A stretch of DNA of 64,000 bases from positions 434,001 through 498,000 of the forward strand of contig JADLCB010000003.1 in NCBI GenBank assembly GCA_020847375.1. The letters run 5' to 3'. This document shows, piece after piece, positions 16,213 through 17,902 of the stretch (position 1 is the first letter of the stretch; each line of letters starts with the position of its first letter). Both the position numbers and the translations under genes were made by a program. A model generated the notes under the pieces. The model made no database searches, was not told where the DNA came from, and worked only from the letters and a program-made list of their open reading frames with translations. This DNA is from Phycisphaerales bacterium. Its GTDB lineage: Bacteria > Planctomycetota > Phycisphaerae > Tepidisphaerales > Tepidisphaeraceae.

Positions 16213-16983
16213 ATGACTCAAACTGCCCGCCAGTCATCTTCAAAATCAGCCTCATCCACCGGCCGACAGAATTTGCTGATCCCGGCATCATATTTTCGGG
16301 CGTCCGAACGACCGCTGGCGAGTTTGTTTTTTGTCCTGCCGTTCCTGCTGATCTATGAACTGGGTTCCCATGTTTTTCAACTGGATCAGATAAGATTTGA
16401 ATTGGTGGCCTTTCGGTTGGCGCGTCAATTTTTTCTATTTTTTGGCGCTACCGGACGATTTATCCCGGCGCTGGCGGTGGTTGGCGTTCTGCTCACCTGG
16501 CATATCGCCCGAAAAGATGGCTGGAAGGTGCGACCCGGCACGTTGGTCGGTATGACAATCGAATCAATCCTCCTGGGCATGCCATTGATTCTGGCCTGTC
16601 TGGCGCTGGCGCATTATCTTCCTCTGGCGGGTCTCAAGGGGGAAATGCAGGCCGGCATTATAATTTCTTTGGGCGCAGGCATTTATGAGGAGATGATTTT
16701 TCGCCTCTTCGCCATGACACTGCTGAGCCTGCTGCTGGTGGACGTGCTCAAATTGCGCCATTCTGTAGCGGTTGTAGTGATTGTGCTGGTTCCGGCATTG
16801 CTTTTTTCCGGATATCACTATCTGGGCGATGAGCATTTTGCCGTGGGAAGTTTCATATTTCGCTGTCTGGCCGGTCTTTATTTCGGGGTGATTTTCATGG
16901 CCAGAGGCTTTGGCGTAACTGCTGGTTCTCACGCAGCTTACGACATCTGGATTATTGGGCTGGCAGCGTGGTTTTCGGGGTAA
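16213..16983 (+). CDS. CPBP-family intramembrane protease (Abi/CAAX type)
   Basis: 256-aa polytopic membrane protein. The family motifs are present: EEMIFRLF (the EExxFR glutamates, about residues 159-160), SGYHYLGD with the first His, and GSHAAYDIW with the second His in the last helix. Bacterial members are linked to prenyl-type processing, bacteriocin immunity or membrane proteolysis; the substrate cannot be told here. About six to seven hydrophobic helices are visible. It follows fliM by 30 bases and may share its transcript. A strong -10 box and leader RNA for the next gene follow its stop. Confidence 0.85.
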   Translation: MTQTARQSSSKSASSTGRQNLLIPASYFRASERPLASLFFVLPFLLIYELGSHVFQLDQIRFELVAFRLARQFFLFFGATGRFIPALAVVGVLLTWHIARKDGWKVRPGTLVGMTIESILLGMPLILACLALAHYLPLAGLKGEMQAGIIISLGAGIYEEMIFRLFAMTLLSLLLVDVLKLRHSVAVVVIVLVPALLFSGYHYLGDEHFAVGSFIFRCLAGLYFGVIFMARGFGVTAGSHAAYDIWIIGLAAWFSG

Positions 16984-16997
16984 ATTCAATTTTTTTC

Positions 16998-17027
16998 TAG
17001 GCAAAACACCGGTTTATTGTGTATAAT
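16998..17027 (+). promoter_or_regulatory. Predicted promoter for the leader RNA and DUF2617-like gene
   Basis: A perfect TATAAT (17022-17027) with a weak -35 candidate TAGGCA (16998-17003) at 18 bases. The predicted start is near 17033-17035, immediately before the first hairpin of the leader. Confidence 0.45.
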
Positions 17028-17032
17028 CGCCG

Positions 17033-17218
17033 AAATAGTTATTCGCAGAGTGCGAATAGCCCGGCCTTGGATTTACGGTGGCTGAGAGCAAATACACGGA
17101 AGTATGAACTTTCAGAATAATGACTCGTACGGAATGAGCGGGCACGAGTACCTTAGGGCACCGTAATTGACACAGACTTGTAGGGTTCGTTTTTCGTTCC
17201 CCGTAGTCGCAGCGGAGA
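17033..17218 (+). ncRNA. Highly structured leader RNA candidate (cis-regulatory or sRNA)
   Basis: About 185 nt between promoter and ORF with four perfect or near-perfect stems. H1 is TATTCGCA-GAG-TGCGAATA (17040-17058). P1 is TTACGGTG (17073-17080) with CACCGTAA (17159-17166), enclosing P2 CTGAGAG/CTTTCAG (17082-17088/17109-17115), capped by ATAC-ACGGAA-GTAT (17092-17105), and P3 ACTCGT/ACGAGT (17123-17128/17144-17149). An alternative P3' CTCGT-ACGGA-ATGAG (17124-17138) excludes P3. Both P2 and P3' put ACGGA in a hairpin loop, and a third GGA (17214-17216) is in the presumed ribosome-binding site. I recognise no known riboswitch family. The CUGAGA word recalls TPP riboswitches, but the rest of that consensus is missing. 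Confidence 0.55.
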
Positions 17219-17806
17219 ATGTCTCTTTTTATAAGAGCATGGACGCCAATGAGTAGTCATCGTACGAAACAACGTCGCAGTGGTGGACTGACGCTAATGA
17301 TTTATCAGCGGATGCTCCATCCCGAGCTGTTCCGGATTCTCGCTTCGGAAAAGATCAGCCGTCGCGCTTATGATGCCGATGTCTGGTTGGTTGAAGGCGG
17401 ACATGTCATCGGTCTGAATGCGGGTAAGAACTCGCTCACCGAAGTCATTGTCACCCGTAACGAACCGCTCACCGATCGCGGTTTGATTCAGACCATTCCC
17501 TGCCGTGGTGAAAAATACCACGAGGAGACCTATGGCGGCAATATCCGTTATATGATCTCCACCCAGGAAGAACAGTTGACCCAGACCCTGTTCGATGCCA
17601 CCAAGCAGGAGATTCGCTCCTATGCCATCAAGCGCGAGCTGATGGCGGCGGAAGTGCCGGCGCACAACGAGCGCGGAGCCGTATTGAGCGTGCTCGATAT
17701 CGAGCGTCGCAGCCACGAGCTGCTGGTGCAGAGTTTCCATCTGTTCGATGAAAATCTGATGGTCATGAAGACTCAGTCGATCATTGAAGTGGTCAAGGGC
17801 CAGTAA
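17219..17806 (+). CDS. DUF2617-like protein of unknown function
   Basis: 195-aa soluble protein with no signal peptide or membrane helix. The block LHPELFRILASEKI, then GHVIGLN, NSLTEV, EPLTDRGL, CRGEKYHEETYGGNIRYMIS, resembles DUF2617 proteins that I recall from planctomycetes, where the LHPELF, LTEV and GGVRY segments recur. The match is from memory and was not searched. No catalytic motif is evident. The start is uncertain: ATG 17219 has GGAG only one base away, and ATG 17249 and 17297 are alternatives. Conservation starts at the third. A folded leader and its own promoter precede it and a good terminator follows, so it is probably a single-gene unit. Confidence 0.7.
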   Translation: MSLFIRAWTPMSSHRTKQRRSGGLTLMIYQRMLHPELFRILASEKISRRAYDADVWLVEGGHVIGLNAGKNSLTEVIVTRNEPLTDRGLIQTIPCRGEKYHEETYGGNIRYMISTQEEQLTQTLFDATKQEIRSYAIKRELMAAEVPAHNERGAVLSVLDIERRSHELLVQSFHLFDENLMVMKTQSIIEVVKGQ

Positions 17807-17868
17807 CTGATCTATAGCTCAGATCGCGCGACCGCGGTTTGGTTGCACGATCTTAAATACGTACCCAG

Positions 17869-17902
17869 CCCGCAGGTTTAACAACTTGCGGGTTGTTTGT
17901 TT
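17869..17902 (+). terminator. Intrinsic terminator after the DUF2617-like gene
   Basis: CCCGCAGGTT (17869-17878) pairs over 10 bp (one G-U) with AACTTGCGGG (17883-17892) around a TAAC loop and is followed by TTGTTTGTTT. Confidence 0.8.

Follow-up and report, generated by a model that had tools for sequence, protein, structure and literature searches.

A conserved structured leader upstream of DUF2617 genes in one family of Phycisphaerae, a candidate target of CsrA

Background

When several hairpins are packed between a TATAAT box and a coding sequence, two questions arise, namely whether the hairpins form a real element and, if so, what reads it. Such a stretch precedes a DUF2617-like gene in the 64,000-nucleotide piece of a 3.0-Mb Phycisphaerae genome assembly that was analysed here (hereafter the window). 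A preliminary description, made from the letters alone, had viewed it as either a CsrA-regulated leader or a new riboswitch or small RNA class. The literature library that was searched contained no paper dealing with CsrA targets of Planctomycetes or with leaders of DUF2617 genes.

We are nearly certain that the structured leader in front of the DUF2617 gene is a real element, and a comparison of related sequences suggests that we are probably dealing with a new CsrA-controlled gene rather than with a new riboswitch. If this is true, the leader would provide Planctomycetes with a defined non-flagellar target of CsrA, it would tie DUF2617, which is widespread in the class, to the flagellin/FliW/CsrA status of the cell, and it would offer a test case for a folded domain that unites distant CsrA sites.

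Results and discussion

Architecture of the leader

The leader begins at about position 17034 and ends at 17248, directly before the true start codon, which is ATG 17249. The features of the locus, in window coordinates, are:

16998..17027, + strand: sigma-70-like promoter, TAGGCA-18-TATAAT, with a predicted transcript start at about 17034
17038..17060, + strand: 5' hairpin (Hp0), GUUAUUCGC[AGAGU]GCGAAUAGC, with a pentaloop of the form RNNGU that is also seen in relatives
17073..17166, + strand: P1 domain, the outer stem of which (17073-17080 with 17159-17166) encloses P2 and P3
17082..17115, + strand: P2 hairpin, CUGAGAG/CUUUCAG, an internal loop and AUAC[ACGGAA]GUAU
17123..17149, + strand: P3 hairpin, ACTCGT...ACGAGT, with a window-specific loop ACGGA at 17129-17133
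17167..17212, + strand: P4 hairpin, GAC...GUC, conserved in position and not in sequence (judged by eye)
17214..17226, + strand: P5 hairpin, GGAGA[AUG]UCUCU, the counterpart of GAAGRR..YYCUUC in the relatives
17237..17246, + strand: Shine-Dalgarno region, GCATGGACGC, GC[AUGGAC]GC, the second candidate CsrA site
17249..17806, + strand: DUF2617 gene (PF10936 match), with ATG 17249 as the true start
17866..17895, + strand: intrinsic terminator-like hairpin and T tract

The general outline had been described correctly, i.e. the gene is DUF2617-like, a TATAAT box (17022-17027, with a weak -35) is followed by hairpins, and a closing stem holds two arms. The start of the gene had been placed at ATG 17219, which lies in the P5 loop and is off by 30 nucleotides; the start codon must be ATG 17249 because protein homology begins there, at M(S/P)NRTKQRRSGG. 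The ribosome-binding site had likewise been misplaced by 30 nucleotides: the GGA that had been assigned to it (17214-17216 region) is part of the 5' strand of P5, although the real site at 17237-17246 does hold an ANGGA. ACGGA had been noted in two hairpin loops and is indeed present at 17096-17100 and 17129-17133, but the second copy, in P3, is not conserved outside the window.

Within the window CUCUU (17223-17227) can pair with AAGAG (17233-17237) in competition with P5, and this pairing is favoured in the predicted fold. A conserved CUCUU/AAGAG switch before the Shine-Dalgarno sequence is unsupported, as AAAGAG is constant in most relatives whatever P5 is. Two further candidates were rejected: an interaction between the 5' tail and the Shine-Dalgarno site would depend on bases that precede the likely start of the transcript, and an upstream open reading frame from the ATG behind the P2 GGA occurs in some leaders and is not conserved.

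The terminator-like hairpin at 17866-17895 and the location of the next open reading frame on the other strand suggest that the DUF2617 transcript is probably monocistronic. Directly upstream of the leader lies a gene for a CAAX-type protease (window 16213-16983), which is a conserved neighbour in that the C-terminal coding sequence of such a protease also lies upstream in many relatives of the family. A stretch resembling RATTWTTTYCTAC recurs in many family orthologs some 19-21 nucleotides ahead of the TATAAT box (window 16987-17027, equivalents in L035-L051); it is an unusual -35 region and may point to a lineage-specific type of promoter.

Conservation within one family

Folded by itself, the 186-nucleotide stretch that had been singled out originally is mildly more stable than its shuffles (z -1.5; 14 of 200 shuffles as good). 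The corresponding scores are -3.8 for the P1 domain (none of 200 shuffles as stable), -4.65 for P2 alone and -5.5 for the 5' hairpin alone, with a mean of -3.1 over 21 leaders of the family. Whether the structure exceeds chance was decided by comparison among orthologs. An equivalent leader of 180-260 nucleotides precedes about 20 of the 23 DUF2617 orthologs of the family, and displays in whole or in part a common plan, namely a 5' hairpin, the outer stem P1 around P2 and P3, and then P4 and P5. A TATAAT, TATACT or TACAAT box occupies the matching place in 21/23 orthologs, some 180-260 nucleotides before the start.

Because MAFFT alignments of the leaders misregistered the stems, a structural alignment of 16 leaders was made by hand. 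The stems keep their pairing across differing sequences: 94.4% of the cells pair, compared to 38-46% in a control in which the partner was slid, and 25 of the 26 pairs have changed on both sides, counts that are biased towards the model since the alignment was made by pairing and variable loops were padded or masked with N. The conservation of the stems in relatives, a check that the preliminary description had put forward, is borne out in this alignment, and three less biased results agree with it. A covariance model built from four relatives, with the window excluded, ranks the window leader first of the 64 kb (both strands), be it with a weak E of 0.6. The same model recovers the left-out leader L038 at an E of 0.003. 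In plain minimum-free-energy folds, finally, 11 of the 15 P1 domains have a GGA in their first apical loop, against a shuffle expectation of 1.36 +/- 1.1 (maximum 4 in 300 shuffles). In the covariance-model searches, an approach that had been advised, the scores for left-out leaders are mostly weak; covariance model R2 was diluted too much by the padding for a whole-genome search. A crude count of GGA hairpins over whole leaders is weakly above the shuffles (19/21 versus 15.8), and for hairpins with longer stems it amounts to 14 versus 7.8. Two leaders, L048 and L051, have one more small hairpin, GCG[G(G/T)AA]CGC, within the junction between P2 and P3.

DUF2617 is present in 187 of 248 genomes of the class, and orthologs of the window's gene occur in metagenome-assembled genomes labelled Phycisphaerales and Humisphaera. 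No counterpart of the leader was seen in the upstream regions of 50 DUF2617 genomes outside the family, in which a visible promoter box usually lies close to the gene. A DNA-level search with the leader in 60 relatives gave short chance matches only; a recurrent 20-nucleotide match was discarded, as it mostly represents coding sequence of unrelated genes, several reading MSGH. The leader thus looks specific to one Phycisphaerae family and, within that family, to one gene.

Conserved motifs and the case for CsrA

The only invariant columns of the structural alignment, which was anchored partly on them, are those of the GGA. The apical loop of P2 reads ACGGAA in the window and AGGGAU, ACGGAU, AGGGAA, AUGGAU and others in the relatives; L040 has no GGA in this loop, and several loops are longer than a hexaloop or do not start with an A. 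Immediately before the start codon the motif GCANGGAMGC is found in 19 of 21 family orthologs and ANGGA in 20 of 21. Comparison shows that this GC[ANGGAM]GC, an ANGGA mini-hairpin at the Shine-Dalgarno sequence, is conserved in the one family while most of the sequence varies, although part of this conservation could simply serve ribosome binding. Genome-wide the pattern is not enriched (47 matches versus 46 for the reversed pattern). The RNNGU pentaloop of the 5' hairpin constitutes a third and weaker motif: GCRNNGTGC occurs in 7 of 21 leaders, compared to 0.43 in shuffles.

A GGA in the loop that caps P2, combined with an ANGGA at the Shine-Dalgarno sequence, makes up the layout of a CsrA/RsmA target. 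The gene csrA is encoded in all 26 genomes of the family; in that of the window, where its presence had been proposed as a check, it is adjacent to fliW and to a flagellin gene (recognised by its sequence), and the protein keeps the RNA-binding residues V42-H43-R44, in the numbering of E. coli CsrA. In FliW-containing organisms, flagellin is the classic target of CsrA. In the window's genome the flagellin gene carries over its Shine-Dalgarno sequence a perfect ANGGAN hexaloop hairpin, CAAUC[AUGGAG]GAUUG (L164:2355-2370, - strand), which is identical in two other genomes of the family and is likely the CsrA site of the fliW-csrA-flagellin block. The hexaloop of P2 is of the same kind, and RsmE/CsrA is known to recognise ANGGAN hexaloops on short stems (PMC7652899). 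Of the options raised beforehand we thus favour the CsrA-regulated leader, and we consider it fairly probable that the leader is a lineage-specific element with CsrA as its binder and with the P2 loop (ACGGAA, 17096-17101) as the candidate high-affinity site. Ortholog L047, from genome G008, has no ANGGA at the ribosome-binding site; in that genome csrA is present and FliW was not found, a single case that may hint at a link between loss of FliW and loss of the leader.

The leader is probably the structured 5' untranslated part of a single-gene DUF2617 transcript. Under CsrA control, a CsrA dimer would bind the P2 loop tightly and then cover the Shine-Dalgarno site, so that the 30S subunit is denied access and less DUF2617 is made; repression is likelier than activation because one of the candidate sites overlaps the Shine-Dalgarno sequence. 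The 5' hairpin might shield the transcript. FliW would probably titrate CsrA, so that DUF2617 output would follow flagellin status. The two conserved GGA sites of the window are 140 nucleotides apart, which exceeds the 10-63 nucleotides over which bridging on model RNAs is reported (PMC7652899); a spacing within this range is seen in several CsrA targets and may not be required of all. Hence either the folded domain, with P1, P4 and P5 as a scaffold, would unite both sites or each would be bound separately. The third, unconserved ACGGA of the window lies about 30 nucleotides from the P2 site.

The leader might instead be a conserved cis-regulatory element to which another protein, such as DUF2617 itself or a ribosome-associated factor, binds without involvement of CsrA, with contacts at the GGA of P2 and at the RNNGU pentaloop of the 5' hairpin. 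We consider this unlikely. CsrA does not explain the conserved RNNGU pentaloop, the N-terminus of the gene product (RTKQRRSGG) is basic and the same gene stands behind all leaders, but a GGA loop with an ANGGA at the Shine-Dalgarno sequence matches the recognition pattern of CsrA, and this genome's flagellin gene has a hexaloop of the same type. Moreover, the DUF2617 proteins of several relatives devoid of the leader start in a similar way (e.g. with QTKQR), so that the protein does not clearly differ according to whether the leader is present. It is possible, if doubtful, that the leader represents a new class of cis-regulatory RNA within this one Phycisphaerae family, in which the multibranched domain gives CsrA a long-range loop site or in which another binder reads the RNNGU 5' hairpin together with the P2 GGA loop.

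That the hairpins do no more than stabilise the 5' end and set the spacing of the ribosome site, the GGA being a Shine-Dalgarno sequence and nothing else, is improbable. This would account for the strong hairpin at the 5' end and for the GGA that evidently serves ATG 17249 as Shine-Dalgarno element; what it leaves unexplained is why a GGA is kept in the P2 loop through compensatory changes in the stem, and why an A and the GC...GC are kept around the GGA at the Shine-Dalgarno site. A metabolite riboswitch is very improbable: the P1/P2/P3 three-way junction with its closing stem would suit it, as would the mutually exclusive pairings that had been reported for CTCGT, which can indeed pair with ATGAG (17134-17138) or ACGAG, but this alternative was seen (by eye) in the window only, the leader precedes a single gene, no Rfam 15 family matches it at the gathering score, and the conserved nucleotides reside in the P2 loop and the ribosome-binding site while those of the internal loop and the junction vary freely among the leaders, which argues against a small-molecule pocket.

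Comparison with known CsrA targets

The proposed CsrA-controlled leader resembles several established systems in part. The E. coli glgC leader pairs a hairpin site with one that overlies the Shine-Dalgarno sequence (PMC7652899), and it shares with the DUF2617 leader the combination of an upstream hairpin-loop GGA and a Shine-Dalgarno GGA; the sequence and the gene are unrelated, however, and the two conserved sites of the DUF2617 leader are 140 nucleotides apart across a multibranched domain. With the Bacillus subtilis hag leader and its FliW-CsrA control, the likeness resides in the fliW-csrA-flagellin block of the window's genome and in the ANGGA over the Shine-Dalgarno sequence, whereas the DUF2617 leader contains several extra hairpins and the gene does not encode a structural flagellar protein. 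The hairpins bound by RsmE/RsmA (hcnA, RsmZ) consist of a short stem topped by an ANGGAN hexaloop, as is also found in the window (AUAC[ACGGAA]GUAU), but the DUF2617 leader is a cis leader with one conserved loop site, unlike a multi-site sponge RNA.

The DUF2617 protein

DUF2617 has been described as a predicted enzyme with a beta-sandwich fold in which two histidines, one Asp and one Glu are conserved; it is found in variant phage-shock-related operons, together with genes of polyamine metabolism (PMC11237479). A comparison of the AlphaFold2 model of the protein (window 17249-17803) with the PDB gave no convincing match (best TM about 0.2); the model itself is confident (pLDDT 91.9). The protein is 55-80% identical among the family orthologs, with an invariant HPE at residues 24-26 and other, nearly invariant positions occupied by His, Glu and Trp.
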